This document shows positions 152 to 46,002 of a stretch of DNA of 64,000 nt, in pieces. Origin of the DNA: Thermosipho sp. (in: thermotogales) (GTDB lineage Bacteria; Thermotogota; Thermotogae; Thermotogales; Fervidobacteriaceae); contig JASKLO010000003.1 in the NCBI GenBank assembly GCA_030153605.1, forward strand, positions 1-64,000. The letters are read 5' to 3'. Both the position numbers and the translations under genes were made by a program. The notes below the pieces were generated by a model. The model did not search any database, was not told the DNA's origin, and worked only from the letters and a program-made list of their open reading frames with translations. Within the stretch, counting starts at the first letter, position 1. Each line of letters begins with the position of its first letter.

Positions 152-1273
152 TTAAAATTTTGATGACAAGATATATTCTCTTATTGCATCTAACGCGGCT
201 CCAAATTCAATATTGTTTTTTAAACCCCTATAAGTAATTGGAACCGCAACTGAAGAGATTGATAAAATTTTTCTTTCTAAAACTTGAGAAAACCATTTTG
301 AAACACCTTCTCCTGACAAAATAATTTTTTCTGGGGCAAGTAATCTAAAAATGTTTGTAAGGAAAATTGCAAGATATTCAAAGGTAGTTTCATAGATTTT
401 TTTTGCCTCTTTTTCATTAATTTTATATAGATTTCTTAGTTCAGCTAAATCATTATCATATATTTCTTCATTAGAAATAAATTCTTCAATTTTTAGATTA
501 TAAAATTTAAATCTTTTTAAATTTGCATAGTCAGATGCAACAGTTTCAAGACATCCAAATGCTCCACAATAACATTTTTCTTTACTTCCGGCATAAAAGT
601 GACCTAGTTCTATTACTTTCCTTTCACTTTTTTCATAAATTCCATGTGATTCATAAAAACAAGCACCTATACCTGTACCATAATTTACAACTAATATTTT
701 CTTTCCGCCATGTTTTACAAATTCTTCTGTTGAAATAGCTTCAACATCATTAAGAACAGAAACAGTTGCATTTGGGAGTATGGATTTTACAATTGTACTT
801 GGGGAAAAATTTTCAAGATTAAGAATTTTAGAATTAACTTTACCTTTTTTAACATTTCCAGATAAAGCAATTCCAACTGCTTTTATTTTATCTAATGAAG
901 AGACTTTTTTAATAATTTTTTCAAGCATTAAAGAAATATTTTCATTGCCCATTTCATTTTTGGTTAATTTCATGGAAATTTTTTCTTCTTCTTCAAAATC
1001 ACCGTTAAAAACAGTTAAACTTATAGTTTCTCTACCGATTCTAATTCCTAAACTTTTCCAAAAATTTTTATTCATTTTAATTATTTGTTTAGGCCTTCCA
1101 GCTTTTTCAGTTTTGTTATGAGAAACTGTGATTAAATCTTTCTTTTTTAAATTTGTTAACAAGTAAGAAAGAGTCGATGGAGTTATTTTTAAAATATTTT
1201 CTAATTGTTTTCTGGTAACTTTTCCCTTAAAAAGTAAGTTTAATAAAAATTTTTTTTGGTTGTTTAATTTCAA
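152..1273 (-). CDS. ROK family transcriptional repressor, probable trehalose regulator
   Basis: The 373-residue protein has an N-terminal winged helix-turn-helix (about residues 1-65, with V-T-R-K-Q-L-E and T-P-S-T-L-S-Y) and a ROK sugar-kinase-like domain. The ROK part shows N-Y-G-T-G-I-G near residue 198, and the zinc motif C-Y-C-G-A-F-G-C-L-E near residue 235, typical of NagC/XylR repressors. The start is a TTG that overlaps the treT stop (TTGA), with AAGGAGG about 7 bases upstream. Co-transcription with treT and the duplicated operator in the divergent promoter region suggest it represses the trehalose genes and responds to a sugar. The effector is not visible. In Thermotogae, ROK repressors commonly sit beside the sugar cassettes they control. 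Confidence 0.9.
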   Translation of the reverse strand: MKLNNQKKFLLNLLFKGKVTRKQLENILKITPSTLSYLLTNLKKKDLITVSHNKTEKAGRPKQIIKMNKNFWKSLGIRIGRETISLTVFNGDFEEEEKISMKLTKNEMGNENISLMLEKIIKKVSSLDKIKAVGIALSGNVKKGKVNSKILNLENFSPSTIVKSILPNATVSVLNDVEAISTEEFVKHGGKKILVVNYGTGIGACFYESHGIYEKSERKVIELGHFYAGSKEKCYCGAFGCLETVASDYANLKRFKFYNLKIEEFISNEEIYDNDLAELRNLYKINEKEAKKIYETTFEYLAIFLTNIFRLLAPEKIILSGEGVSKWFSQVLERKILSISSVAVPITYRGLKNNIEFGAALDAIREYILSSKF

Positions 1274-2484
1274 TGAATAACCTCCTTAATAATCTTTAGA
1301 TATCTTTTCAAATGTGAGGTAGTTAGAAATTTTTCTTTTACAAGTTTTTTAGCGTTTTTTCCAAATTGATTTCTTAAATTTTCATCTTGAATTAGTTCAT
1401 AAACCGCATCAGATAATTCCATTATATCATTTCTTAAATATCCATTAAATCCGTCAATAATTTGAACTTTTACTCCACCAACAGGTCTTGCAACTACAGG
1501 ATTTTGTTTCCAAAGCATTTCAGAAATTACTAATCCGAATCCCTCTTTTGTTGCTGTATGCAAACCAATTGTTGAGATTGTTTGAAAAGCATTAACTTCC
1601 AAATGTCCAACACCTTTAAGGTCAGTTAGAAAATGAATGTCAGGATCAACACCGGCATATCGAAGTATATCTTCGAATAATATCCATCCTTCTGGATCAT
1701 CTTTAGCCATTGCCGAAACAATTAACAATTGAAGATCAACCTTTTCTTTAAGAATTCTATATACGTCAATAGCGCTTTTTAAATCTTTCCAAGGATCAAA
1801 TCTTGCTACAACTGTAATAATTGGTCGATTTAAATCAATATTATATTTTGATGCAATTTCAGTTAAAACTTCGCTTGGTAATTTTTTGTTTTTATCGCTT
1901 AACGGATCAATACTAGGTGGAAATTCAACAGCAATTTCTTTAAAAGGTTCCTGAATATATTCATTTAGATGAAATAAAGCTTTTGAATACTTAGAAGCAG
2001 CTTTAAAAGTGACTTTATTCCATATATCAAAGTTAGGATTTGAAGTATCAATATGACATCTCCAAATGAATTTACCATCTTTAAATAACGGAATATAAAA
2101 AGGTTGAGGGTCATGAATTATAATAACATCTCCATCTAAATTTAATTTATTAGAATTAAATTTGTTTACTTCTTCGAAAAGATCCAATTCATCATCAGAA
2201 AGCGAGATATTTGCTCCTTGAAAAGCATTATGAAGTTTTTTAGTAACATTAAAAAATTCATTTGGTGCTTCTAAAACTTCCCAAGTAGCGTTTAAACCTA
2301 AATCATTCATTAAAGGTACTAAAGTATATAATAGTTCTGCAACACCACCCCCATATGATGTTGCATTAACATGAACAACTTTAAGACCTTTTAATTCTTT
2401 AGAAATTTCTAAGAGCTCATCTACTTCTTCTTTAGCAACTACATTGTAATCTGAAATTTTTTTAATAGGTAGTTCAACAGTCAT
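1270..2484 (-). CDS. treT: Trehalose glycosyltransferring synthase (GT4 family)
   Basis: This 404-residue family GT4 glycosyltransferase is of the TreT type, which reversibly makes or splits trehalose using a nucleotide-diphosphate glucose and glucose. The early motif H-V-N-A-T-S-Y-G-G-G-V-A-E-L-L is the TreT nucleotide-sugar loop. E-G-F-G-L-V-I-S-E-M in the C-terminal half is the retaining GT4 E-x7-E signature. Length matches archaeal TreT (about 410). ATG is preceded by AAGGAGG. It is the first gene leftward from the divergent promoter, and the ROK repressor follows with a 4-base overlap. Linkage to a disaccharide importer suggests it handles imported trehalose. Trehalose phosphorylase of the same GT4 group is the main alternative. 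Confidence 0.88.
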   Translation of the reverse strand: MTVELPIKKISDYNVVAKEEVDELLEISKELKGLKVVHVNATSYGGGVAELLYTLVPLMNDLGLNATWEVLEAPNEFFNVTKKLHNAFQGANISLSDDELDLFEEVNKFNSNKLNLDGDVIIIHDPQPFYIPLFKDGKFIWRCHIDTSNPNFDIWNKVTFKAASKYSKALFHLNEYIQEPFKEIAVEFPPSIDPLSDKNKKLPSEVLTEIASKYNIDLNRPIITVVARFDPWKDLKSAIDVYRILKEKVDLQLLIVSAMAKDDPEGWILFEDILRYAGVDPDIHFLTDLKGVGHLEVNAFQTISTIGLHTATKEGFGLVISEMLWKQNPVVARPVGGVKVQIIDGFNGYLRNDIMELSDAVYELIQDENLRNQFGKNAKKLVKEKFLTTSHLKRYLKIIKEVIH

Positions 2485-2502: not shown

Positions 2503-2515
2503 TTCGATTTTCGAA
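2503..2515 (-). promoter_or_regulatory. Operator copy 1 (treT side)
   Basis: Read on the minus strand this is TTCGAAAATCGAA, an inverted repeat TTCGA-N3-TCGAA. It lies just downstream of the predicted treT -10 box and just upstream of its Shine-Dalgarno. The same 13 bases occur on the plus strand at 2794-2806. Size and symmetry fit a winged-HTH dimer such as the adjacent ROK repressor. Confidence 0.75.
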
Positions 2516-2518
2516 AAA

Positions 2519-2546
2519 ATTATATCATAATAAATTTAAATGTAAA
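2519..2546 (-). promoter_or_regulatory. treT-ROK promoter
   Basis: On the minus strand, -35 TTTACA (2546-2541), a 16-base spacer and -10 TATAAT (2524-2519). Transcription would begin within or next to operator copy 1, so a bound repressor would block initiation. Confidence 0.65.
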
Positions 2547-2764
2547 AATGAAAAAATAAAAAGAATAATAAGCATTTTAATTTTTTTTTGGACATATGTA
2601 ATTAGTAGGGAGCGATATTTAGAATTTTTGTAAATTTTTGTTGTAAATTAACATCAAATCTAAAAGATAAGACAAAAGTTTAAATATTTCATTTTCTTTG
2701 ATTATTCTAGATTAAAATTAATTAGAATCGAATAACAGAAAAAAATTCATTAAAAACATTTTTT
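2547..2764. other. Gene-free core of the divergent trehalose control region
   Basis: The 351-base gap between treT and the binding-protein gene holds two outward promoters with operators at its edges. The middle is AT-rich with T- and A-runs. I see no ORF with a ribosome binding site, no tRNA-like fold and no strong hairpin here. Confidence 0.6.
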
Positions 2765-2793
2765 TTGAATTTTGCTGAATATGATATTATTAA
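2765..2793 (+). promoter_or_regulatory. Promoter of the sugar ABC operon
   Basis: -35 TTGAAT at 2765-2770, 17-base spacer, -10 TATTAA at 2788-2793. Operator copy 2 starts at the next base. The arrangement mirrors the treT promoter on the other strand. Confidence 0.6.
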
Positions 2794-2806
2794 TTCGAAA
2801 ATCGAA
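2794..2806 (+). promoter_or_regulatory. Operator copy 2 (ABC transporter side)
   Basis: TTCGAAAATCGAA, identical to copy 1 read from the opposite strand. It sits directly after the -10 box and 29 bases before the start codon. Two exact copies in mirrored positions make chance unlikely. Confidence 0.78.
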
Positions 2807-2835: not shown

Positions 2836-4080
2836 ATGAAAAGGTTGTTAGTAGTACTTTCTTTACTATTAGTTGTAGCTTTATCATTTTCTGTTACAAC
2901 TATTACTATGACTTCAGGAGGAGTTGGAAAAGAGTTAGAGGTCTTATATACACAATTAAAAGAATTTATGAAAGAAAACCCAGATATAGTAGTTACTGTT
3001 ATACCAATGCCTGATTCTTCAACAGAAAGACATGATTTGTATGTTACTTATTTGGCAGCTGGAGAAAGTGATCCTGATGTATTAATGCTAGATGTTATTT
3101 GGCCACCTGAATTTGCTCCATTTTTAGAAGATTTAACAAAAGATTACGATTATTTTGAACTAGATAAATTTTTACCAGGTACAGTAAAATCAGTAACCGT
3201 AGATGGTAGAATTGTTGCTGTACCATGGTTTACAGATGCAGGGCTTTTATATTATAGAAAAGATTTATTAGAAAAATATGGATATGATCATCCACCTGAA
3301 ACATGGGATGAACTTGTAGAAATGGCCCAAAAAATTTCAAAAGCAGAAGGAATTGAAGGATTCGTATGGCAAGGTGCAAGGTATGAAGGTCTTGTGTGTG
3401 ACTTTATGGAATATGTTTGGTCATTTGGTACAGATGTTTTAGATGAAGATGGCAATGTAATAGTCAATAATCCTAAGGCAATAAGCGCTTTAAAATTTAT
3501 GGTAGATTTAATCTACACATATAAAATTTCTCCAGAGGGTGTTACCACTTACATGGAAGAAGATGCTAGGAGAATATTCCAAGCAGGAAATGCAGTATTT
3601 ATGAGAAATTGGCCATATGCATGGTCACTAGCTAATAGTGATGATTCTCCAATAAAAGGAAAAGTAGGAGTTGCACCACTTCCAAAAGGTCCTGGCCCAG
3701 ATGGAAGACATGCGGCTACATTAGGTGGTTGGAATCTTGGTATTAATATATTCTCTTCACCAAAGGAAAAAGAAGCAGCTAAAAAACTTATAAAATTCTT
3801 AACAAGCTCAGATCAGCAACTTTATAAGGCAGTAAATGCTGGCCAAAACCCAACAAGAAAAGAAGTTTATGATAAACCTGAATTAAAAGAAGCAAATCCA
3901 TTTATGGTTGAATTATTTGATGTGTTTATTAATGCGCTTCCAAGGCCAAGAACTGCTAGCTATGCTGAAGTATCAGATGTAATTCAGAGATACGTTCATG
4001 CTGCTTTAACAAGAGAATTAACTCCAGAAGAAGCAATTTCTAAACTTGAAAAAGAATTAAAAATGTTACTTGGAAAATAA
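2836..4080 (+). CDS. Sugar ABC transporter substrate-binding protein (trehalose/maltose type)
   Basis: This 414-residue protein has a signal peptide (M-K-R, then a Leu/Val-rich core ending A-L-S-F-S). The mature part is of the family 1 solute-binding type (MalE class): E-L-Y/E-V-L-Y-T-Q-L-K-E-F near the start, D-V-L-M-L-D-V-I-W-P-P-E, V-P-W-F-T-D-A-G-L-L-Y-Y-R-K-D-L-L-E-K-Y-G and P-P-E-T-W-D-E-L. These match Thermococcus/Thermotoga trehalose-maltose binding proteins. ATG follows AAGGAGGTGTAAGT. It delivers sugar to the two downstream permeases. Trehalose is inferred from linkage to treT; maltose, sucrose or other alpha-glucosides are possible. Confidence 0.9.
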   Translation: MKRLLVVLSLLLVVALSFSVTTITMTSGGVGKELEVLYTQLKEFMKENPDIVVTVIPMPDSSTERHDLYVTYLAAGESDPDVLMLDVIWPPEFAPFLEDLTKDYDYFELDKFLPGTVKSVTVDGRIVAVPWFTDAGLLYYRKDLLEKYGYDHPPETWDELVEMAQKISKAEGIEGFVWQGARYEGLVCDFMEYVWSFGTDVLDEDGNVIVNNPKAISALKFMVDLIYTYKISPEGVTTYMEEDARRIFQAGNAVFMRNWPYAWSLANSDDSPIKGKVGVAPLPKGPGPDGRHAATLGGWNLGINIFSSPKEKEAAKKLIKFLTSSDQQLYKAVNAGQNPTRKEVYDKPELKEANPFMVELFDVFINALPRPRTASYAEVSDVIQRYVHAALTRELTPEEAISKLEKELKMLLGK

Positions 4081-4133: not shown

Positions 4134-5015
4134 ATGCAAAAAAAGGAGCCCAGAATTGCTTTTTGGATGATTTTGCCAGCGATATTGGTTATTTCAGTAA
4201 TAGCTTTTTTCCCTCTTTTTAAAACTTTTTATGATAGTTTTTTTTCTTTTAGTTTGAATCCAAGATTTCCAAGAGAATTTGTAGGATTTGGTAATTATAT
4301 TAAACTTTTTAATGATTCTAGATTTTGGGATGCATTAAAAACTACTATCATATTTACTGTTATATCAGTTTCATTAGAAACGATTTTGGGATTAATGATA
4401 GCTTTAGTAGTACATCAGGACTTCAAATTTCGAGGGGCAGTTAGAGCTGCTATGTTAATACCATGGGCAATTCCTACGGCTATATCTTCTCAGATGTGGA
4501 GATGGATGTTTAATGATCAATTTGGTATAATGTCTAGATTTTATGAAGCTTTACATATAATTGAACCTGGAACTCCAATACTTGGAAGACCTGGTTTGGC
4601 ACTTTGGGCCATTATTCAAGTTGATGTTTGGAAGACAACACCTTTTATGGCGTTATTAATTCTTGCAGGCTTGCAATTAATTCCTGAACAATTATATGAA
4701 GCTGCAAAAATCGATGGGGCTAATATGATACAAAGATTTTTTAAAATTACATTACCTCAATTGACTCCTACTATTGCTGTTGCTTTGATTTTCAGGACGT
4801 TAGATGCATTAAGAGTTTTTGACGTTGTGTATGTTATGACTCGTGGAAGCGTAGGTACTGAGACTTTATCTGTTTATAACAGAGTTTTGCTTATGGATAG
4901 AGCTTTTACAAGTGCTTCATTTGGTTATGGTTCAGCTTTGTCTGTGGTAATTTTTCTATTGATTTCTATTTTTGCAATAATATATATAAAAACTTTGAAA
5001 CTCCAGTTTGATTAA
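4134..5015 (+). CDS. Sugar ABC transporter permease (MalF-like)
   Basis: The 293-residue integral membrane protein has about six hydrophobic segments, beginning near residue 13. The cytoplasmic coupling (EAA) loop reads E-A-A-K-I-D-G-A-N-M-I-Q-R-F-F-K-I-T-L-P, which contacts the ATPase. It would form the channel with the next gene product. ATG at 4134 follows GAGGTGAGATT. No ATPase gene (MalK/MsmX type) occurs in the cluster, so an ATPase encoded elsewhere must drive it. Confidence 0.92.
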   Translation: MQKKEPRIAFWMILPAILVISVIAFFPLFKTFYDSFFSFSLNPRFPREFVGFGNYIKLFNDSRFWDALKTTIIFTVISVSLETILGLMIALVVHQDFKFRGAVRAAMLIPWAIPTAISSQMWRWMFNDQFGIMSRFYEALHIIEPGTPILGRPGLALWAIIQVDVWKTTPFMALLILAGLQLIPEQLYEAAKIDGANMIQRFFKITLPQLTPTIAVALIFRTLDALRVFDVVYVMTRGSVGTETLSVYNRVLLMDRAFTSASFGYGSALSVVIFLLISIFAIIYIKTLKLQFD

Positions 5016-5029
5016 GGAGTGTGAAAATA

Positions 5030-5869
5030 ATGAATTCAAAAAAAATAATTTATAGATTTGTATTATACTTCTTAGTTGCAATTATACTAATATGGTGTAT
5101 TTTTCCATTTTATTGGGCTGTAGTTTCTTCTTTAAAACCCGATAAAGATTTATTTGAAATTAACCCTTCTTTATTTCCTAAAAGAATAACCTTTGAAAAC
5201 TATGTCAAGGTTTTTACAGAAAGACCATTTCATATTAATATTTGGAATAGTATTGTTGTAGCTGGTATAACAACAATAGTTTCACTTTTAATAGGATCTT
5301 TAGCAGCTTATGCAATTGCAAGATTGAAATTTAAAGGTAAAGTTGTTGTGATGTCTTTGATATTAGCTGTTAGTATGTTTCCACAAGTTTCAATTTTAGG
5401 ATCTCTTTTTGTTCTTTTGAGAAATTTTAAATTAATCAATACTTATCCAGGTTTGATATTACCATATGTCTCTATTACTTTGCCATTGACTACTTGGATT
5501 TTACAAAATTTCTTTAGAGAATTACCTAAAGAAGTAGAAGAATCAGCTGCTATTGATGGATGTTCAAGGATAAGAACATTATGGTCTATAGTTCTTCCAA
5601 TGGCTGCTCCTGGGTTAGTTGCAACTGGTTTATTAACTTTTATTTCTGCATGGAATGAGTTTTTATTTGCATTGACATTCATGCAACGTCCAGAAAAATA
5701 TACTGTTCCTGTTGCAATTGCCCTTTTTAAAGGTGCGTCACAATATGAAATTCCTTGGGGACAAATTATGGCAGCAGCAGTAATTGTAACAACACCATTG
5801 GTTATATTAGTGTTGATTTTCCAAAAAAAGATAATTGCCGGACTTTCTGCTGGTTCTGTTAAAGGATGA
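5030..5869 (+). CDS. Sugar ABC transporter permease (MalG-like)
   Basis: The 279-residue membrane protein has about six transmembrane segments and an EAA loop, E-E-S-A-A-I-D-G-C-S-R-I-R-T-L-W-S-I-V-L-P. It pairs with the MalF-like subunit. A GTG at 5021 is in frame but lies one base after AAGGAG. The ATG at 5030, about 10 bases after it, is the better start. The stop overlaps the ribosome binding site of the amidase gene, so the two are co-translated. Confidence 0.92.
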   Translation: MNSKKIIYRFVLYFLVAIILIWCIFPFYWAVVSSLKPDKDLFEINPSLFPKRITFENYVKVFTERPFHINIWNSIVVAGITTIVSLLIGSLAAYAIARLKFKGKVVVMSLILAVSMFPQVSILGSLFVLLRNFKLINTYPGLILPYVSITLPLTTWILQNFFRELPKEVEESAAIDGCSRIRTLWSIVLPMAAPGLVATGLLTFISAWNEFLFALTFMQRPEKYTVPVAIALFKGASQYEIPWGQIMAAAVIVTTPLVILVLIFQKKIIAGLSAGSVKG

Positions 5870-5873
5870 TACT

Positions 5874-7256
5874 TTGAAAAATTTATCTGTTAAAAAATTT
5901 AATGAATTGTATGAAAATGGAAAAATATCATCTGAAAAGCTTGTTGAATTTTATTTGGAACGTATTTCAAAAATTAGTTTAAATGCAATTCTTGAAATTA
6001 ATCCTGATGCTCTATTTATTGCTAGAGCATTAGATAATGAGCGGAAATGTGGAAAAAAAAGAAGCAATTTACATGGAATTCCCTTGGTAATAAAAGGGAA
6101 CATTGATACTGGAGACAAAATGCAGACAACAGCTGGAGCAAAAGCTTTAGAGGGTAATTATGTTAATGAAGATGCTTTTTTGGTAAAAAAATTAAGAGAA
6201 GCTGGTTGTGTAATTTTAGGTAAATCAAATTTAACTGAATTTGCAAATTTTGTTTCTTTTAAAATGCCTAATGGTTTTAGTAGATTAGGTGGTCAAACTA
6301 AAAATCCTTATGGAAATTTTGATACAGGTGGTTCAAGTTCCGGTTCTGCTGTAGCAATTGCCGCAGATTTTGCATTACTTTCAATTGGTACAGAAACATC
6401 TGGTTCTATTTTATCACCATCTAGTATGAATTTTTGTGTTGGTCTTAAACCGACTGTAGGTACAGTAAGTAGAACAGGTATTATCCCAATTTCTTTTACG
6501 CAGGATACTGCTGGTCCCATTACGAGAACAGTTGATGATGCTTTTGAATTGTTTAAAGTAATTTATGGATATGATTCAAGAGATTCAGCAACATTTTCAA
6601 TTAAAGATAGCAATTTCGACGACAAAATTGAAGAACTTCAAGATTATTATGGTATGAATTTTGGTTACAGTGAGCAAATTTTGAAGTGGTTAAAAAAAGA
6701 ACAATTAGATTTATTTTTTGAAACTTTAAAGAAAATTGAAAAATTGGGTGGAAAAATTAAAAAAATAGAATTTCATAATCTTGAAAAAATTAATAACATT
6801 GAAGTTTTGTATTATGAATTTAAATTAGGTATAGATTATTATCTTAAAGATAAAAATTTAAAAATTAAGTGCTTAGATGACATCATAGAATATAATTTTA
6901 GAAATCCTGATGCTATTCCGTATGGACAAAATATTTTGTTACACTCTGCTGCAAAAGATATGAATGATGGAAGATATATCAATTTTCTTTTGAATGACAA
7001 AAAATATGCAAAAGAAGAAATAGATAGAATTTTTATTGAAAATGATCTAATTGCACTACTTTTTCCAGCTAATTATGGAGCTCATATTACTGCAAAAGCT
7101 CAGTATCCATCAATTACAGTTCCGGCTGGCTATACTAAAAGTGGACCTTTTGGGATTACTTTTTCTGCACGTGCTTTTGAAGAAAGTAAGTTGTTTTCTT
7201 TGGCTTTATTATTTGAAAGAAAATTTCCTGTTAGAAAGCTTCCTGAAATAGACTAA
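5874..7256 (+). CDS. Amidase signature family enzyme
   Basis: The 460-residue protein is of the amidase signature family (GatA/AtzF-like). The catalytic lysine lies in G-I-P-L-V-I-K-G-N-I-D, and the Ser-cisSer part in G-G-S-S-S-G-S-A-V-A-I-A-A-D, followed by G-T-E-T-S-G-S-I. I chose TTG at 5874 because AAAGGATGA lies about 7 bases upstream and the frame before it overlaps malG. It is not a convincing GatA: no gatB or gatC is nearby, the C-terminal half diverges, and it belongs to the trehalose/ABC operon. The substrate, a carboxamide, is unknown. Confidence 0.85.
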   Translation: MKNLSVKKFNELYENGKISSEKLVEFYLERISKISLNAILEINPDALFIARALDNERKCGKKRSNLHGIPLVIKGNIDTGDKMQTTAGAKALEGNYVNEDAFLVKKLREAGCVILGKSNLTEFANFVSFKMPNGFSRLGGQTKNPYGNFDTGGSSSGSAVAIAADFALLSIGTETSGSILSPSSMNFCVGLKPTVGTVSRTGIIPISFTQDTAGPITRTVDDAFELFKVIYGYDSRDSATFSIKDSNFDDKIEELQDYYGMNFGYSEQILKWLKKEQLDLFFETLKKIEKLGGKIKKIEFHNLEKINNIEVLYYEFKLGIDYYLKDKNLKIKCLDDIIEYNFRNPDAIPYGQNILLHSAAKDMNDGRYINFLLNDKKYAKEEIDRIFIENDLIALLFPANYGAHITAKAQYPSITVPAGYTKSGPFGITFSARAFEESKLFSLALLFERKFPVRKLPEID

Positions 7257-7275
7257 AATATCAAATAAATATTTC

Positions 7276-7305
7276 CTTGCTCCATTTTTGGAGCAAGTTT
7301 TTTTT
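7276..7305 (+). terminator. Rho-independent terminator of the trehalose ABC operon
   Basis: CTTGCTCC (7276-7283), loop ATTTTT, GGAGCAAG (7290-7297), then eight T. A strong intrinsic terminator directly after the amidase gene. Confidence 0.92.
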
Positions 7306-7316
7306 ATAATTATGAT
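7288..7316 (+). promoter_or_regulatory. Candidate promoter of the reverse gyrase operon, overlapping the terminator
   Basis: -35 TTGGAG (7288-7293) lies in the 3' arm of the terminator. A 17-base spacer leads to -10 TATGAT (7311-7316). A TATAAT at 7305-7310 is an alternative -10. The leader to the ATG at 7351 would be about 30 bases. Confidence 0.45.
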
Positions 7317-7350
7317 ACACTTGATATGGAGAGAAGAAAGGGGGAAAAAT

Positions 7351-10300
7351 ATGCCATTAAATTCAAAATATTATTTTTCCTGTGTTAACTGTGAAGATGT
7401 CAATACAGATGAAAGAAATTTAAGAGGATTTCCTTGTGAAAAATGTTTACCAGAAATAAACGATGACTTCTATGAAATTTTAGAAAAAGAGAACAAACTT
7501 TATAAATTAAAGGAGTATAAAAAGTTTAATGAAGAACTAGAAGAATTTATTGGATTTTTTGAAAAAAAGATAAATTTTACAATAAATGGTTATCAAAAAA
7601 CTTGGGCAAGAAGAGTATTGCTGTCAAAAAGTTTTACCATGATTGCACCTACTGGAGTTGGTAAAACAACTTTTGGAATTTTAACAGCTATATGGATGTC
7701 TAAAAAAAATAAAAAATCAATTTTAATTTTTCCAACATTATCTATTGTTAAACAAGTTGTTGAAAGAATAAAAAAACTCGAAAAAAGTGTAAAAGTATTA
7801 TTTTACAGTTCAAATATGAAAAAATCAGAAAAAATAGATTTTGAAACTAATTTTAAAAATGAAAATTATGAAATTTTAATTGTTTCAACGCAATTTATTT
7901 CTAAGCATAGAGAAGATTTTAAAAATAAAAAGTTTGATTTTGTTTTTGTTGATGATGTTGATTCAATCCTCAAAGCTTCTAAAAATATAGAAACAATTAT
8001 AGCTTTAACTGGTGTGCCTGAAACTGTAATAGAAGATACTTTGAAAAAAATAATGAAAGGTCAAAAACCAGATTTAAAAGATATAAAGCATGGTGTTTTA
8101 GTAGTTTCTTCTGCAACTGCAAAACCCAAAGGAATTAGACCTTTATTATTTAGATATATTTTCAATTTTAATTTAGGAAAAGCCACTTTTCTATCTAGAA
8201 ATATCGAACATATAAGGTTTAAGGAGAAAAAATTTGAAAAATTACTTGAAGTTTTAAACGTTTTGAAAGATGGAATTATTATTTATGTTCCCAATGAAGA
8301 AGAAGGGAAAAAATTAAGAGAAAAACTAGAAAAAAGTGGAATTAAAGTAGGAGTAAGCTGGGAGAATTTTGAAGAAAGTTTTGAAAAGTTTAAATATGGA
8401 GAACTTAAAATTTTAATTGGTATTTCAAATTATTATGGAAAACTTGTAAGAGGAATAGATTTGCCTGAAAGAATAAAATTTGTAATTTTTTGGGGGTTAC
8501 CTAAATTTAGATTGGAAGAAGAAAATTTAGAAATTCCTGACTTTTATACTTATATTCAAGCAACGGGTAGGACTTCAAGATTATTATTTGGGAATTTAAT
8601 AAAAGGTTTAAGTATTGTTTTTGAAGAGGATGACCAACTTTTTGAAAAATTATCTACAAGGCTTATATGGGTTTCTGATGAGGAGTTTTTTGATCCTTCT
8701 GAAGTAGATTTAAAAAAATTAGTTGAGGAAGTTATAAAATCTAGAGAAAATATTAAAAAAGAGGGTTTCAAGGTACTATCTAAAATGATAGTAGTCGAAT
8801 CACCTACTAAGGCAGAAACTTTGGCAAAATTTTTTGGAATTTCCTCTATTAGACAATTTAACGGTCTTTTTGTTTTTGAGACTATAACAAAAGAAGGTTT
8901 GACACTTTTAACAGCTTCCCGAGGTCATACATATGATTTAGTAACCAAATCTGGATATCATGGTGTTGAAGTAAAAAATGGAAAGTTTGTTCCGGTTTAC
9001 AGTACAATAAAAAGATGTAAAAATTGTGGTTATCAGTTTGTTGATGAAAATGAAAAATGTCCGAAATGTGGTTCTACTGAAATTGACAATAAAATTCATG
9101 TTTTAAAAGGTTTAAAAGAATTAGCTTTAGAGATTGATGAAATTTTAATTGCTTCTGATCCAGATGTTGAAGGTGAAAAAATAGCATACGATATTGCACA
9201 GTATTTATTTCCCATCAATAAAAATATCAAACGAATAGAATTGCATGAAATAACTAGATCAGGTTTAAATAAAGGATTGACAGAAAAAAGAGAACTAAAT
9301 GAAAATTTAGTTAAATCTCAAGTTGTAAGGCGAATTGAAGATAGATGGATAGGTTTTGAACTTAGCCAGAAATTGCAGAAAAAATTCAAACGGATACTTT
9401 CAGCTGGAAGAGTTCAAAGTACAGTGTTAGGTTGGATTATTGAAAGAGAAGAAGAATATAAAAAAAGTGTTAAGAACTTTACAAATTTTACATTTAAAAG
9501 TGGATTAAAAGTTGAACTGGAAGGAATACATGAAAATGTTTCGATTAAAATTTTAAAAAAATATGAAGATAAAATAATGCCTCCACCACCATTTAGCACT
9601 TCAAGTTTACTTTCTGAGATTTCTAAAAAATATAAATTTTCAGTTGCTGAGATAATGAATATTTTACAAGATTTGTTTGAAAATGGATTTATTACTTATC
9701 ATAGAACAGATTCGATAAGAATATCACCTTTTGGGCAAAAAATAGCCGAAAAATATTTGAAAAATAAGGGCTTAGAGTATCTTTATCATCCGAGAAGCTG
9801 GAGTGAAGAAGGGGCTCATGAGGGTATAAGGCCTGTTAAACCTGTGGATCCAGATGAATTAAAAGAAATGCTTAAGGATAAAATAATTAATATTGGTAAA
9901 AAACATCTTTTAATATACAAAGAAATCTTTAACAGATTTTTAGCAAGCCAATCTAGAGAAGTAAAAGTACAAAAAGCAGTAATCGAAATATCATCTAAAA
10001 ATTTGAAAAATGAGCAAGAAATAATCACTCAAATTTTAGAAGATGGTTGGAACTTTTTTTTGCCAATAAAAGTCACATCAATAATGGAAAATGATGAAAT
10101 AGTAGATCGAAAGATATACAAAAAACATACTGTTCCACTGTTCACTCAGGCAAGTTTAATAGAAGAAATGAAATTAAAAAACATTGGAAGACCTTCCACC
10201 TATGCAAAAATTATTTCAATTTTATTTGAAAGGCGTTATATAATTGAAGATAGATTTAAAAGAGTTATGCCAACAAAATTGGGTAAAATGGTTTATGGAT

Positions 10301-10443
10301 TTTTATCAAAAAACTACAAACATTTTATTAGTGAAGAAACAACTAGAAATCTAGAAAAATTAATGGATGAAGTAGAAAATGGAAAAACGGATTTTGAAAA
10401 TGCTTTGCTTAATATTTATGAATCAGTAAAGGGGGTGGGATAA
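7351..10443 (+). CDS. rgy: Reverse gyrase
   Basis: Fusion of a helicase-like domain and a type IA topoisomerase that adds positive supercoils with ATP, a hallmark of hyperthermophiles and some thermophiles. Start ATG 7351 follows AAAGGGGGA and gives 1030 residues; upstream frame lies in the terminator. Zinc finger 1 has Cys 11, 14, 29 and 32. Walker A is A-P-T-G-V-G-K-T-T (Lys 105) and the DEAD-type box is V-D-D-V-D. The topoisomerase part starts near residue 478 ([11 protein letters not shown]), with zinc finger 2 (C-K-N-C and C-P-K-C), [14 protein letters not shown] and catalytic Tyr 783 in F-I-T-Y-H-R-T-D-S. The latch between helicase strands is reduced to about a dozen residues. The KaiC-like gene follows with a 1-base overlap (TAATG). 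Confidence 0.97.
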
Positions 10444-40023: not shown

Positions 40024-40672
40024 ATATATTTTATTACTTTTAACTATTTTATTATCTGGATTTGCAATATTTTCTAAAAAAGCTTTTAATGCATTTGTTT
40101 ATAGGACAATACTAAGTATTTTAGTTGTTGGATTGTATATCACCTATTTTGCTCCAGACGTTGCTCTTGCCGAAGCAATGTTAGGTGCTCTTTTAACAAC
40201 TTTTATCTACTTGTTAGCATTTAAAATTCATTCAGAAATAAAAATAGGTATATTAATTTTACCTGTTTTGTGTGAAAAGTATCAGGAATATTATAAAGGA
40301 ATAATTCCTGAAATATTAGAAGAATTTTCAAAAAAGTATAATTATAAAATTAAATTTATTGAATTAAAAGACTTTGATGAAATAATGAATTATTTAAGTG
40401 ATGTTAAAATTGATATTGGTATTTGCTATAATGGAGATTTTAAAATTTTAGAGGTACCTGTATATCAATATAAAGGTGAAGAAAAAAATTTTTTTGAAAT
40501 ACAAGAAATTTTAAAAAACGAGAGCAATTTGAATTCATTAAAAAAATCTAAAAACTATACTCTTTCTTTTTGTTTTTCAGACAAAAATTCTATATTATAT
40601 GAAGAGTTCAAAGATTTTTATACACAATTCGATTTGGAAAAAGTTTTAATAAAACATTTAAGGAGGTATTGA
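40010..40672 (+). CDS. DUF4040/MbhD-like membrane protein fused to a binding-protein-like domain
   Basis: The N-terminal 80 residues hold three hydrophobic helices with T-Y-F-A-P-D-V-A-L-A-E-A-M-L-G-A, the DUF4040 signature of MbhD and of part of MnhB/MrpA in Mrp and Mbh complexes. About 135 residues follow, beginning G-I-L-I-L-P-V-L-C-E-K-Y, with P-E-I-L-E-E-F-S-K-K-Y-N-Y-K-I-K-F and V-K-I-D-I-G-I-C-Y-N-G-D-F. That pattern recalls a family 3 solute-binding lobe. I know of no such tail on this subunit. TTG 40010 has GAGAGGG 7 bases upstream. M42 peptidase follows after one base. Confidence 0.72.
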   Translation: MVIVRYILLLLTILLSGFAIFSKKAFNAFVYRTILSILVVGLYITYFAPDVALAEAMLGALLTTFIYLLAFKIHSEIKIGILILPVLCEKYQEYYKGIIPEILEEFSKKYNYKIKFIELKDFDEIMNYLSDVKIDIGICYNGDFKILEVPVYQYKGEEKNFFEIQEILKNESNLNSLKKSKNYTLSFCFSDKNSILYEEFKDFYTQFDLEKVLIKHLRRY

Positions 40673-40673
40673 T

Positions 40674-41708
40674 ATGTCATATGTTCAATTTAGCATTCAA
40701 AAAATACTTGATTTATGTTCAATTCCTAGTCCTACTGGTTTTACTCATAGGGCCATAAAATATTTAGTAGAAGAATTTAAAAAATTGGGATTTAGCTACA
40801 CTTTGACCAAAAAAAATAATTTATTAGTTGATTTAGGACATGGTGAAAGTGATGCTATAATGTTTGTTGCCCATGTTGATACATTAGGTGCTATGGTAAA
40901 ACACATAAAAAACAATGGTAGATTAAGCATCAGTAAAATAGGTTCGTTCCCATTTAATCATGTTGAAAATGAAAATTGCATTATTCACACAAGAGATGGT
41001 AAAGAATATACTGGAACTATATATTTAACAAAACCATCTGTACATGTTTATAAAGAAGTAGGAACTTTAGAAAGAAATGATGAAAATATAGAAGTGGTTT
41101 TAGATCAAAAAGTTTCAAACGAACAAGATGTAAAAGATCTAGGTATTATGCCAGGAGATTATATATCTTTTGAACCAAGAACAATTTTAACTAAAACAGG
41201 TTTTATTAAAAGTAGACATTTGGATGATAAAGCCGGAGTTGGTATTTTATTAGGTCTTGCAAAATCTATAAGAGATTATGCTGTTCAACCAAAAAGAAAA
41301 GTATATATGATGTTTACAAGCTATGAGGAAGTAGGTCATGGAGCAGCTAGTTCGATTCCTGAAGATGTTTCTGAAGTTATTTCTGTAGATATGGGAGCTG
41401 TAGGTGAGGGCCTCAATTCAAATGTTTATTCTGTATCAATATGCGCAAAAGATTCAGGCGGACCATATGATTATGAAACGGTTTCAAAACTTATTAAAGC
41501 AGCTAATATTGCTGAAGTTAATTATACCGTTGATATTTATCCGTATTATGGTTCTGATGTTGAAAGTAGTTTAAGAGCTGGCTATGATATAAGACACGGT
41601 CTAATAGGTCCAGGAGTATATGCTTCACATGGATATGAGAGAACACACATCGATGCAATTGAAGCAACTTTGAAGTTGTTGCAAGTATATGTAGAAATAG
41701 ATGAATAA
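40674..41708 (+). CDS. M42 family metalloaminopeptidase
   Basis: The 344-residue dinuclear metal peptidase (FrvX/glutamyl aminopeptidase/TET type) has metal ligands in V-A-H-V-D-T-L-G, R-H-L-D-D-K-A-G-V-G, S-Y-E-E-V-G-H-G and D-M-G-A-V-G, and the last His in E-R-T-H-I-D-A. Members form large tetrahedral complexes that trim peptides in the cytosol. ATG follows AGGAGGTATTGAT. Co-transcription with the antiporter piece looks incidental. Confidence 0.93.
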   Translation: MSYVQFSIQKILDLCSIPSPTGFTHRAIKYLVEEFKKLGFSYTLTKKNNLLVDLGHGESDAIMFVAHVDTLGAMVKHIKNNGRLSISKIGSFPFNHVENENCIIHTRDGKEYTGTIYLTKPSVHVYKEVGTLERNDENIEVVLDQKVSNEQDVKDLGIMPGDYISFEPRTILTKTGFIKSRHLDDKAGVGILLGLAKSIRDYAVQPKRKVYMMFTSYEEVGHGAASSIPEDVSEVISVDMGAVGEGLNSNVYSVSICAKDSGGPYDYETVSKLIKAANIAEVNYTVDIYPYYGSDVESSLRAGYDIRHGLIGPGVYASHGYERTHIDAIEATLKLLQVYVEIDE

Positions 41709-41719
41709 TCAATTTGTTG

Positions 41720-41728
41720 TGATATAAT
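41720..41728 (+). promoter_or_regulatory. Extended -10 before the DtxR-like gene
   Basis: TG-A-TATAAT, with no good -35, 39 bases before the start codon in the 58-base gap after the M42 gene. Confidence 0.5.
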
Positions 41729-41766
41729 TAAATTAGTATAGTCTTATTTAAGGAGGTAATTAAAAA

Positions 41767-42261
41767 ATGCCCGAAGAATGTAATTTGACTTCTGCTGAAA
41801 GAAAGTATCTTTTAATTGTTTTTTTGACTTTAAATGAAATGGGTTGGACTAGGTTAAAAAAAGTATCTGATTTTGCGAAAGTGAAAATGCCTTCTGCTAA
41901 ACAATCATTAGATTCTTTAGCCAAAAAAGGTTTAATTTTTTACGAAAGAAGAGGTGCAATTACATTAACTAAGCTTGGAAAAGAAATTGCAATTAAAGAA
42001 AATGAAAATATTCAAGCTGTTAGAAAGTTTTTTACTGAAATTATGTTAATTGAACCTGAAAAAGCAAATGAAGCTTCTTGGAAAATTTATTTCGATATGT
42101 CTGAAGAGATAGTTGAAAAATTTGTTTTGTTTGCTAAGTTTATGAACCAGTGCCCTCTTGAAAAGCCAGTTTTTATTGGTCATTTTAAAGAATTTATTAA
42201 AAAAGGGAATTTAGGATCTGAGTGTCCTTTTATAAATAAAGAAATTCAAAGGAGAGATTAA
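41767..42261 (+). CDS. DtxR/MntR-like transcriptional regulator, probable loss of metal sites
   Basis: The 164-residue protein has a winged HTH (about residues 8-75: L-T-S-A-E-R-K-Y, A-K-V-K-M-P-S-A-K-Q-S-L-D-S-L, T-L-T-K-L-G-K-E-I-A) and a helical dimerisation domain, as in MntR. Aligned by eye to MntR, the metal ligands (Asp 8, Glu 11, His 77, Glu 99, Glu 102, His 103) are not kept. It has cysteines in E-E-C-N, N-Q-C-P-L-E-K-P and S-E-C-P-F-I-N, so it may sense a different metal, an iron-sulfur cluster or redox state. ATG follows AAGGAGG. First gene of a tight six-gene run. Confidence 0.78.
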   Translation: MPEECNLTSAERKYLLIVFLTLNEMGWTRLKKVSDFAKVKMPSAKQSLDSLAKKGLIFYERRGAITLTKLGKEIAIKENENIQAVRKFFTEIMLIEPEKANEASWKIYFDMSEEIVEKFVLFAKFMNQCPLEKPVFIGHFKEFIKKGNLGSECPFINKEIQRRD

Positions 42262-42262
42262 T

Positions 42263-42493
42263 TTGGAAAAAGACATTTTAATAAAAATTGATAAAGAAAA
42301 AGTCCATATTCTAAGTTATATACTAGAATCAGAAGATAATTTAGTAAATGTTAGGAAATATGAGAATGGTATTTTGAGAATAATTGTACCTAATGATTTA
42401 GTTGAAAAACTTTTAATTTTACTTGAAGACTTGAAAAATAAAATTGGTTTTGAAATTATAGAAATAAAGGAAAACTCTGGAAGTGCTGATTGA
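42263..42493 (+). CDS. Small DUF4911-like protein
   Basis: The 76-residue protein starts at TTG 42263 one base after the regulator stop. The pattern I-D-K-E-K-V-H-I-L-S-Y-I-L-E-S-E-D-N-L-V-N-V-R and a C-terminal helix with I-G-F-E-I-I-E-I resemble DUF4911, a small ferredoxin-like fold whose members sit beside DNA or metabolism genes in Thermotogales and Clostridia. No function is assigned. Confidence 0.7.
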   Translation: MEKDILIKIDKEKVHILSYILESEDNLVNVRKYENGILRIIVPNDLVEKLLILLEDLKNKIGFEIIEIKENSGSAD

Positions 42494-43341
42494 TGAAAAA
42501 ATTCTTTATTTTTCTTTTATTGATTATTTTTTATAGTCTAATCTTTTCTCACTCTGTTTATATGAAAATTGAAGACAAAGTCTTAATAAAAGGACTATCT
42601 GAAAATTTTAAATTTAATTATCCAGATTTTTCAGATGGTTTTATTGTTGCAATTTATGGAGACAGTAGATGGGGAGCAAAAATACATAAAAAAATCGTTG
42701 GAATGATTTCTGAATTTTCTCCTGATGTAGTGGTACATTTAGGTGATATGGTAAATAAAGGAAACAATTTAAAAGATTGGGAATTATTTTTTGATATAAC
42801 ACTACCTTTGAGGAAAAATTCTTACTTCCAAGTTGTAAAAGGAAATCACGAAAATCCGGATGAATTTTTCATTCAATTTTTTGGTGTTGATAATTACTAT
42901 TCGGATTTTTTAAATTATAGATTTATTTATTTGGATGTTGATACAGGATTAGAAAATATTAAAAAGTTTTTAATTGAAAATGTTTCTAAGAATACAATTG
43001 TCTTTATTCATTATCCAATTTTCACTGTAGGAGGATATTGTAAAAATCCCACTATAAAATCTATGAATTCATTGCATGATCTTTTTAGAAGTTTAGGTAT
43101 AAAATTGGTCTTTTCTGCCCATGATCATAATTATCAAAGATTTATGGTTGATGGTATAAACTATGTAATTACTGGTGGTGGAGGAGCATCTCTTTATTCT
43201 AAAAAGTGTGATAATGATTTTTTAGTTAAATTTTATAAAGAATATAATTTCGTAATTTTAAATATAACAAATAGCATTATTAAATTGACAACATATGATA
43301 TCAATAAAAGAATCATTGATAGTTTAGAGATAAAATTTTAA
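42493..43341 (+). CDS. Exported calcineurin-like metallophosphoesterase
   Basis: The 282-residue protein has a signal peptide (residues 1-19). The dimetal site is A-I-Y-G-D-S-R-W-G, H-L-G-D-M-V-N-K-G, K-G-N-H-E-N, F-I-H-Y-P and S-A-H-D-H-N-Y-Q. The G-D-S-R in place of the usual D-x-H makes the first motif atypical (Ser-Arg for His); purple acid phosphatase-like proteins show similar changes. I-T-G-G-G-G-A-S-L-Y resembles the C-terminal motif of that group. ATG overlaps the previous stop. It probably works outside the membrane on phosphoesters; the substrate is unknown. Confidence 0.87.
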   Translation: MKKFFIFLLLIIFYSLIFSHSVYMKIEDKVLIKGLSENFKFNYPDFSDGFIVAIYGDSRWGAKIHKKIVGMISEFSPDVVVHLGDMVNKGNNLKDWELFFDITLPLRKNSYFQVVKGNHENPDEFFIQFFGVDNYYSDFLNYRFIYLDVDTGLENIKKFLIENVSKNTIVFIHYPIFTVGGYCKNPTIKSMNSLHDLFRSLGIKLVFSAHDHNYQRFMVDGINYVITGGGGASLYSKKCDNDFLVKFYKEYNFVILNITNSIIKLTTYDINKRIIDSLEIKF

Positions 43342-43362
43342 ATAAAGTAAGGAAGTGAAAAA

Positions 43363-43992
43363 ATGAAAAAATTTGTAATTATTGTTATTTCAATAATTTT
43401 ATTTTTATTTCCATATATTTTTTATTTGATCGATAAGTATCAAGTTATTAGCAACTTTAATACTTATAAAAAAATTTTGGAAAATAATATTGAAAATTAT
43501 GATACCTTAATTAAAGAACTTATTAATATTAAAAGTCCTGATGGTTATGTTGTCGAAAATGATAAATTGTATTACAAAGGAACAATATTAGAAATTAAAA
43601 ATGTATTTGAAGGATATAATGTAATAAATTTATCAAACAATAAATATGAGTTATTTTATATTATAAATTCTAAAATTTACAAAATTCCTAAAATAAAATC
43701 AAACTTTATTATATTCGATTCAAATAATCGGATAATTTCTGAAAGTGACTTTGCCAAAGATGTAAGTGAAATTTTTCCAAATGTTTATCAAAACATAACT
43801 TTTTTTAGAGGCAAAAAAGTTTATTATGAAAAAATTTCATTTGAAAAAGGTTTAAATGCAATAGTTTATGTAAAAATTCCTAATCAACATTTGCTTTTGT
43901 ATCTGCTCTTCATTCCATTGGGTTTTTTGCTTTTATTAGAATTTGAAATTATTAAAGCGGTAAAGATTAGTAAAAAGAAGGGGGATCAATAA
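43363..43992 (+). CDS. Hypothetical membrane protein with two anchors
   Basis: I do not recognise this 209-residue protein. It has one transmembrane helix at residues 4-24 and one near 175-195 (L-L-Y-L-L-F-I-P-L-G-F-L-L-L-L), then a basic tail. The 150 residues between are probably extracytoplasmic and mixed alpha/beta, a layout seen in small sensor or scaffold proteins. ATG follows AAGGAAGTG. It overlaps the cobalamin adenosyltransferase start by one base. Confidence 0.7.
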   Translation: MKKFVIIVISIILFLFPYIFYLIDKYQVISNFNTYKKILENNIENYDTLIKELINIKSPDGYVVENDKLYYKGTILEIKNVFEGYNVINLSNNKYELFYIINSKIYKIPKIKSNFIIFDSNNRIISESDFAKDVSEIFPNVYQNITFFRGKKVYYEKISFEKGLNAIVYVKIPNQHLLLYLLFIPLGFLLLLEFEIIKAVKISKKKGDQ

Positions 43993-44513
43993 TGATTACT
44001 ACTAAAACAGGGGATAATGGGAAAACGTATTTAGCAAATGGTGAAAGAGTGTATAAAGATGATATCAGAGTAGAAGCTTATGGAACATTGGATGAATTAA
44101 ATTCTTACTTAGGTTTAATAAAAAATTATTTAGAAGCTAATGAAAAAGATACTATTGAAAAAATTCAAAAACAAATTTTTCGAATTTCATCAGAATTAGC
44201 TAAAGGTGAAAAATTTATAGAATTAATAAGTAAAAAAGAAATTGAAGAACTAACACTGTTAGTTGCTGAATATGAGAAAAATGTAAGTTTAAAAGGATTT
44301 GTTTTACCAGGTTCAAATAAAGTCAGCGCACTTTTAGATATTGCAAGAACAATAGCTAGAAGAGCTGAAAGAAGAATAGTTAGCCTTTCTAAAAAAGAAA
44401 AAGTTAGAAAAGAGATTATAGCTTATATTAATAGATTATCAGATTTTTTATTTATTCTGGCTAGAAATAGTGAAAAAGATAAAATAAAATATGTAGATTT
44501 TAAAAAGGAGTGA
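43992..44513 (+). CDS. Cob(I)alamin adenosyltransferase, PduO type
   Basis: The 173-residue protein forms the helical bundle of PduO/MMAB enzymes. T-K-T-G-D-N-G-K-T-Y is the ATP-binding N-terminus, then Y-G-T-L-D-E-L-N-S-Y-L-G, R-T-I-A-R-R-A-E-R-R and Y-I-N-R-L-S-D-F-L-F-I-L-A-R. It makes adenosylcobalamin from cob(I)alamin and ATP. The consumer enzyme is not visible in this window. Confidence 0.95.
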   Translation: MITTKTGDNGKTYLANGERVYKDDIRVEAYGTLDELNSYLGLIKNYLEANEKDTIEKIQKQIFRISSELAKGEKFIELISKKEIEELTLLVAEYEKNVSLKGFVLPGSNKVSALLDIARTIARRAERRIVSLSKKEKVRKEIIAYINRLSDFLFILARNSEKDKIKYVDFKKE

Positions 44514-44520
44514 TTTAACT

Positions 44521-46002
44521 TTGGTTAACATTAATGGAAATAATCTTAGAATAGTTGATGTTCATAGTGTTGCTCGAAAAAATGAAAAAGTAGTTTTAGA
44601 TAAAGAGTCAAAAAGAAAAATGGAAGAATCAAGAAAAGAAATTGAAAAAATTTTAAAAATTGGCAAGCCAGTATATGGAGTCAATACAGGTTTTGGAGCA
44701 TTAGTAAATGTTAGAATTTCTAAAGAGCAATTAGAAGAACTGCAAAGAAATATTGTTTTGTCGCATTCCGCTGCTATTGGTAAACCTTTGGATATTGATA
44801 TTGTCCGTGCGATGATGCTTTTAAGAGCTAATTCGTTAGCTAAAGGATATTCAGGAGTAAGACCGCTAGTAGTTGAAAAGATAATAGAATTTTTAAATAA
44901 TGATGTAATTCCATATGTTCCAGATAAAGGTAGTGTTGGTGCAAGTGGAGATTTGGCTCCGCTTGCACACATTGCTATGTCTCTTATTGGAGAAGGTTAT
45001 GTTATTGAATCTGGAAAAAAGTTAAAAACTAGTGAGGTTTTAAGAAAAAAGGGCATTGAGCCCCTCAAATTAAAAGAAAAAGAGGGTTTAAGTTTACTAA
45101 ATGGTACTCAGTATATTTCGTCAATATTATCTTTGGTAATTTATGATGCTCTAAATTTATTACAAGTTGCTACAATAATTGCAGCAGGTTCCGTTGATGC
45201 ATTATTAGGTTCTCCTTCTGCTTTTGATCTTAGATTGCAAAAAGTTAGAAATCATATAGGACAGCAAGTAATTGCAGAAATATTATTGGAATATCTTGAT
45301 GGTAGTCAGATAAGAGAATCTCATAAAAATTGCCAAAAAATACAGGATGCTTATTCTCTAAGAGCTATTCCTCAAGTTTATGGAGCAGTTTATGATACTT
45401 TAGTATATGCTTCACAAGTGGTAGAAAATGAAATTAATGCTTCTACTGATAATCCTTTGGTATTTGATGGAGATGTAATTAGTGGAGGAAATTTTCACGG
45501 CGAACCTGTGGCATTAATTGCTGACTTTGTAGCAATTGCTTTAACAGATTTAGGTAATATGATTGAAAGAAGAATAGATAGATTAATTAATCCATTAATA
45601 AATGAAAATTTACCACCTTTCTTATCTTCGGGCACGGAAGGGTTAAATTCAGGATATATGATTTGGCAGTATACTGCTGCTTCTCTTTGTAATGAAAATA
45701 AGGTTTTATCTTATCCTGCATCTGTTGATACAATTCCAACTTCAGCATATCAAGAAGATCATGTAAGTATGGGAGCGACATCTGCTAGGAAATTGTTAAC
45801 CATTTTGGATAATGTGCTTTCTTTGGTTTCTATAGAAGCAATGTTAACGAAAGTCGCATTAGAATTTCGTAAACCATTAAAGTCATCAAAAAAAATTGAA
45901 GATTTTTTCTCGAATTTTAATATAGAACTTTCAGGTGATAGATATTTTGGTGAAGATTTTGAAAAAGTAAAGATCTTTTTAAAATCAGAAATAAGAAAAT
46001 AG
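44521..46002 (+). CDS. hutH: Histidine ammonia-lyase
   Basis: The 493-residue lyase of the MIO family converts histidine to urocanate and ammonia. The MIO-forming Ala-Ser-Gly lies in G-S-V-G-A-S-G-D-L-A-P-L-A-H. G-V-N-T-G-F-G-A-L carries the catalytic Tyr loop (Y-G-V-N-T-G-F-G). Q-E-D-H-V-S-M-G and N-P-L are also conserved. TTG 44521 follows AAAAGGAGTGA. No hutU, hutI or formiminoglutamate gene is nearby, so urocanate disposal must be elsewhere, or the enzyme is a related aromatic ammonia-lyase or aminomutase. Confidence 0.9.
   Translation: MVNINGNNLRIVDVHSVARKNEKVVLDKESKRKMEESRKEIEKILKIGKPVYGVNTGFGALVNVRISKEQLEELQRNIVLSHSAAIGKPLDIDIVRAMMLLRANSLAKGYSGVRPLVVEKIIEFLNNDVIPYVPDKGSVGASGDLAPLAHIAMSLIGEGYVIESGKKLKTSEVLRKKGIEPLKLKEKEGLSLLNGTQYISSILSLVIYDALNLLQVATIIAAGSVDALLGSPSAFDLRLQKVRNHIGQQVIAEILLEYLDGSQIRESHKNCQKIQDAYSLRAIPQVYGAVYDTLVYASQVVENEINASTDNPLVFDGDVISGGNFHGEPVALIADFVAIALTDLGNMIERRIDRLINPLINENLPPFLSSGTEGLNSGYMIWQYTAASLCNENKVLSYPASVDTIPTSAYQEDHVSMGATSARKLLTILDNVLSLVSIEAMLTKVALEFRKPLKSSKKIEDFFSNFNIELSGDRYFGEDFEKVKIFLKSEIRK

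Follow-up and report, generated by a model that had tools for sequence, protein, structure and literature searches.

Paired candidate TreR operators between divergent trehalose operons of the Thermotogales, with a conserved spacing that may reflect DNA looping

A regulon of the ROK-family regulator TreR in Thermotoga maritima and other Thermotogales was reportedly described by Kazanov et al. in NAR in 2013. In the excerpted text of Rodionov et al. 2013 (PMC3750489), the ROK-family TreR of the Thermotogales co-regulates treEFG and treT, trehalose induces treTR, and all Thermotogales studied except Petrotoga mobilis have the TreR regulon. Another ROK repressor, NagC, controls most of its operons through two sites and looping, both of which are needed according to the excerpts of PMC5401889. 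The TreR regulon is therefore already published; the operator geometry was not found in print, and literature searches on Thermosipho TreR, Fervidobacterium trehalose repression and ROK looping brought up no other account of the sites or of a TreR loop.

The locus considered here, from a heat-loving Thermosipho-type bacterium, lies in a window of 64,000 nt, i.e., the whole stretch of DNA that was analyzed, and consists of two operons pointing away from each other, treR-treT to the left and treEFG to the right. On the reverse strand, treT (1270..2484) encodes a glycosyltransferring trehalose synthase (Pfam TreT_GT1, N-terminal domain), and its end is overlapped by treR (152..1273), which encodes a ROK-family regulator, the candidate binder of both operators. 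On the forward strand, treE (2836..4080) encodes the solute-binding protein of a sugar ABC transporter, and treF (4134..5015) and treG (5021..5869) encode ABC permeases. Further along the window, a long ORF (7288-10443) seems, by eye, to combine a part resembling a helicase with one resembling a topoisomerase, the combination known from reverse gyrase.

The 351-bp gap between treT and treE contains two copies of the exact 13-mer TTCGAAAATCGAA, one on each strand, as originally predicted. The first, O(treT), occupies 2503..2515 of the reverse strand and reads toward treT, i.e., 2515-2503; the second, O(treE), occupies 2794..2806 of the forward strand and reads toward treE. There are no further copies in the window. 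The separation of 278 bp (spacer 2516..2793, the proposed loop) is confirmed, and corresponds to 291 bp from start to start. The description of the pair as mirror images is loosely worded; what is present is an inverted pair of near-palindromes. The pattern TTCGANNNTCGAA is found twice in the window, compared with a mean of 0.02 in dinucleotide shuffles, and none of 100 shuffles reached two. Across the whole genome (1.69 Mb) it is confined to the two tre sites. Allowing one mismatch adds 32 places, but 30 of these are within ORFs and the 2 outside have no start within 250 bp; a wider regulon was rejected on this basis.

The product of treR is a ROK protein. It scores 93.6 bits against Pfam ROK (cut-off 22.9) and 22.6 bits against MarR_2, below the cut-off of 27 for that family, and GntR is absent among its domain and family matches. 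Its N-terminal region aligns with Listeria Lmo0178 from residue 10 (E 1.3e-24). What we take to be the kinase ATP motif, DxGxT, is degenerate, reading GRET, GREE and similar at that position in the rows listed in the alignment, and the presumed zinc motif CxCGxxGCxE is intact in all rows listed. Judged by these features, TreR is a ROK regulator and not a sugar kinase. A search of the genome with the ROK profile returned two genes above the cut-off and three further matches below it. In the second gene, the kinase domain fills the whole 327-residue frame; that is, treR is the only above-cut-off ROK gene in the genome with an N-terminal DNA-binding region. Together with the regulation of the same genes by the published TreR (PMC3750489, in excerpt), this supports the choice of the adjacent ROK protein as the natural candidate. 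The two 13-bp near-palindromes are very probably operators of the ROK repressor TreR.

Both candidate operators sit immediately behind a predicted promoter. For treT, the extended -10 element TGATATAAT (2519..2527, reverse strand; hexamer 2524-2519) ends 3 nt before the operator, and a -35-like TTTACA (2546-2541) lies 16 nt upstream of the -10. For treE, the extended -10 element TGATATTAT (2782..2790, forward strand; hexamer 2785-2790) likewise ends 3 nt before the operator, so that the predicted position of each 13-mer directly after a -10 box is borne out on both sides. A promoter scan returned no promoter-like site for treE, and its total of sites did not exceed the shuffled count. The ribosome site of treT begins 4 nt past the operator and that of treE 17 nt past it; the expectation that each copy lies just before a ribosome site is therefore a good description of the treT side, but only a loose one of the treE side. 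Two other genomes, G010 (L089) and G014 (L088), have a treE operator that ends 4 nt before the ribosome site, where bound TreR would lie nearly on the ribosome-site DNA.

Among the 20 genomes of the family (f1), the 3-nt offset on the treE side is invariant. On the treT side it is found in 11/11 genomes outside g3, but in all nine g3 genomes the operator lies 14-16 nt behind the likely -10, so that the operator directly follows the -10 of treT only outside this group. Transcription usually starts about 7 nt after the -10, and with an offset of 3 nt the operator would cover the start point. We propose that a TreR dimer binds each near-palindrome, and that each operator overlies the expected start of one of the divergent operons, treT-treR or treEFG. 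As each would cover the expected start of its operon, bound TreR would block initiation at both promoters, and treR, being part of the treT-treR operon, would repress itself. By analogy with the published TreR of the Thermotogales, trehalose would release the repressor. A combined pattern of extended -10, 3 nt and operator, TGNTANNNTNNNTTYGANNNTCRAA, occurs without mismatch 27 times across the 20 genomes. As 26 of these occurrences are at tre and a single one lies elsewhere (G015:C3:192873), the operator appears to serve the tre locus alone. An exact match at tre is found in 19 of the genomes, the exception being G002, which has one-mismatch matches only; the reversed control of the pattern, with up to one mismatch, gives 0 to 4 matches per strand and genome.

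The divergent tre layout is present in all 20 family genomes. Upstream of the orthologous treT and ABC transporter genes, where the original prediction had staked itself on the presence of the motif, two sites lie between treT and treE in every one of the 20, each within one mismatch of TTYGANNNTCRAA. Of these 40 sites, 32 match TTYGANNNTCRAA exactly and 8 are one base off, a fit that is partly by construction, as the consensus was drawn from the same sites; neither the strict form nor the genome-wide count has this bias. When these intergenic regions are resampled (first-order), two sites appear in 0.46 genomes on average and in no more than 4. The inverted repeat TTCGA-N3-TCGAA of the original prediction describes the sites of this genome, but this strict form fits both sites in only 4/20 family genomes; it was dropped as the family consensus and broadened to TTYGANNNTCRAA, which fits better. 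Across the order, the strict motif matches in 55/61 genomes, and most of the listed matches are spread around the genomes. Its mere presence is thus uninformative, and only a place beside treT counts.

A chance repeat, or one kept for a reason other than regulation, such as a methylase target, has to be weighed against these counts. TTCGAA is a 6-bp palindrome and a possible restriction or methylation site. However, the number expected by chance in the window is only 0.02, the sites recur at the same place in every family genome, and the offset from the treE -10 is everywhere the same. This explanation is refuted as far as sequence can refute it, and we consider it hardly credible.

A few features of individual genomes were noted in the course of this comparison. 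In G017 (L093, ~6468-7499), the treE operator and the treE ribosome site are separated by about 1 kb of additional DNA and a 344-residue ORF on the reverse strand. This resembles an insertion, and as such would disconnect treE from its operator. In G016, the last 4350 bases of the single contig (G016:C1:2262000-2266349, L191) repeat ~40211-44561 (L096) at 99.98%, probably an untrimmed circular-assembly overlap, and the second treE match in this genome is due to that repeat. Two distant aminotransferase-like frames, at G012:C4:23009-24058 and G010:C1:905227-906270, have one in-frame TGA each.

Outside the family, the picture is different. In genus g7 of family f3, presumably a Thermotoga-type genus, and in family f2, TTAATTYANGTTACGA comes after the -10 that precedes treT or the tre operon (L063, L065-L071 and L109-L111 carry it in the operator position). 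It occurs in 13/41 non-f1 genomes, as a single copy in each, and in 1/20 f1 genomes, away from tre; this last match, in G016, was taken as chance, because inspection of the ORFs alongside revealed none that is tre-like. The exchange of TTAATTYANGTTACGA for the family operator is a case of operator turnover, in which the outer TTC-N7-GAA frame is similar. Thus, the motif expected upstream of tre genes in the Thermotogales is found throughout the family, but related families have a different sequence at the same place. In two genomes, G039 and G041, which have treEFG-treT but no treR next to these genes, such a site is also missing before treE.

The TreR recognition helix of f2 and f3 also differs in sequence from that of f1. 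The recognition helix varies along with the operator from family to family, which favors TreR as the binder, and bears on the alternative that the sites are bound by a regulator from some other family whose gene lies elsewhere, and that treR has other targets. We infer the binding of TreR to the sites, and our genome survey covered ROK proteins, which leaves some room for a regulator of, for example, the LacI or GntR family. Against it, in addition to the joint variation of helix and operator, the genome has no further promoter-like exact copy of the operator, and the published TreR controls the same genes (PMC3750489, in excerpt). We regard another regulator as improbable.

With TreR as the likely binder, we turn to the distance between its operators. 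From start to start, this is 291, 290, 277 and 291 bp in g1, 271, 279, 271 and 280 bp in g5, 300 bp in g4, 185 bp in both g2 genomes, and in g3 185 bp once and 196-198 bp in the other 8/9 genomes. The intervening DNA is poorly conserved. Aligned g3 spacers are 40-66% identical, with one pair at 91%, and the ungapped identity of their central 100 bp is 0.36, compared with 0.31 for shuffled spacers (7/9 g3 genomes, leaving out G005 and one of the near-identical pair). The middle of the g3 spacers shows no block of conservation, and a shared central activator is not favored for that reason.

To put the spacing in perspective, its rate of change was compared with that of control lengths, using independent contrasts on a tree of two unlinked proteins. 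In g2 and g3 (n=11), the length from operator to treT start evolves 4.3 times faster than the spacing (p 0.016), the treE-treF gap 5.1 times (p 0.008), the treR-treT gap 25 times, and the AGT divergent intergenic region 24 times (p 1e-5); the DisA gap (n=10) evolves 41 times faster (p 1e-6). In g1, g4 and g5 (n=9), the factors are 4.4 for treE-treF, 57 for treR-treT and 7.9 for AGT (p 0.004), but the treT leader of 17-22 bp is slower than the spacing (0.1 times), which counts against a loop. These factors are subject to the way in which the controls were delimited: the treE-treF and treR-treT gaps are taken from ORF starts, so that the choice of start codon adds noise, and for AGT and DisA the gaps were obtained by extrapolation from alignments, of which some begin inside the protein (at residue 121 for the AGT neighbor in G013). 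DisA was left out for g1, g4 and g5, where its neighbor gene was not found, as was the PPDK pair throughout, whose neighbor is present in only 8/20 genomes. Because the spacing changes more slowly than the controls while the spacer sequence is near random, the comparison indicates that the length of the spacer is under selection, and its sequence is not. The suggestion that the separation would permit looping thereby gains independent support.

The spacings may also share a helical register. With the spacings grouped by hand into seven clusters, a Rayleigh test for a period of 10.5 bp gives R=0.715 (p=0.021 by Monte Carlo; p 0.004 to 0.066 when one cluster is left out), and among periods from 6 to 20 the strongest is 10.4. 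The spacing of G002 (277 bp) is about a quarter turn out of phase. This is suggestive, but no proof, of operators that are helically phased. We propose that two bound TreR dimers hold each other across the spacer and thereby form a DNA loop, in the manner of NagC at nagE-nagB. The chances of such a repressor-held loop appear to us evenly balanced. The more specific idea that a rigid looped complex sets the spacing, so that 185 to 300 bp are kept in one helical register, is more tentative; under it, length would change across the family mainly by about whole helical turns, with the sequence drifting freely.

The alternative is that TreR acts at each operator independently, with no loop, and that the spacing reflects some other promoter constraint, such as a geometry of two RNA polymerases or the wrapping of DNA. 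Each operator alone already sits on a start point, and in g2 and g3 the strictest distance is not that between the operators: the chosen -10 of treT lies 182 nt from the treE operator in 10/11 genomes and 170 nt in G005. The constraint may therefore concern the promoters and not a loop. The figure of 182 nt depends on the chosen -10, which is not the top-scoring hexamer in 6/9 g3 genomes; the operator-to-operator distances are unaffected. Conversely, the middle of the spacer lacks a conserved motif that would suggest a shared activator, and the spacings step near whole helical turns, not by 2 to 7 bp, though the events are few. We give independent action somewhat less than even chances. Taken as a whole, the explanation by TreR operators together with a loop is a likely one.

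As the regulon is already known, the discovery of the operators alone would add little. If the loop is real, however, comparison of genomes alone would read out a DNA loop, and the in vivo helical repeat, in heat-loving bacteria. A kept length with a near-random sequence would be a comparative signature of looping, testable in any locus with paired operators, and the natural variants of 185, 197, 271, 280, 291 and 300 bp would offer a series in which to study loop geometry with a heat-stable ROK repressor.

Among the known systems, the TreR of Bacillus subtilis has only its name and the trehalose theme in common with the regulator described here; it is a GntR-family protein, unrelated to the ROK TreR. 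The closest solved relative of the latter is the Listeria ROK protein Lmo0178 (5f7p, 5f7q, 5f7r), which is distant in sequence. E. coli NagC at nagE-nagBACD is alike in being a ROK repressor with two operators at divergent promoters (PMC5401889, in excerpt; Plumbridge and Kolb), and the features in common with this locus are the operators over divergent promoters and the constrained operator spacing. NagC differs in its sugar and in its operator sequence, and the NagC loop is needed for regulation (same excerpts), whereas the loop here is read from the spacing alone. The TreR regulon of T. maritima and the Thermotogales, in the excerpts of PMC3750489, is alike in having a trehalose-responsive ROK repressor beside treT that controls treT/treR and treEFG; a treT-linked ROK regulator is found here also, as are candidate operators ahead of treT and of treEFG. 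The g7 and f2 genomes carry TTAATTYANGTTACGA in place of the f1 operator. T. maritima differs in that treEFG does not adjoin treTR and carries a GluR site in addition (same excerpts), whereas here the operons are divergent and their operators paired. In kind, then, these are ordinary TreR operators of a published regulon, an assignment that is well supported; it is the looping signature between them that is unusual.
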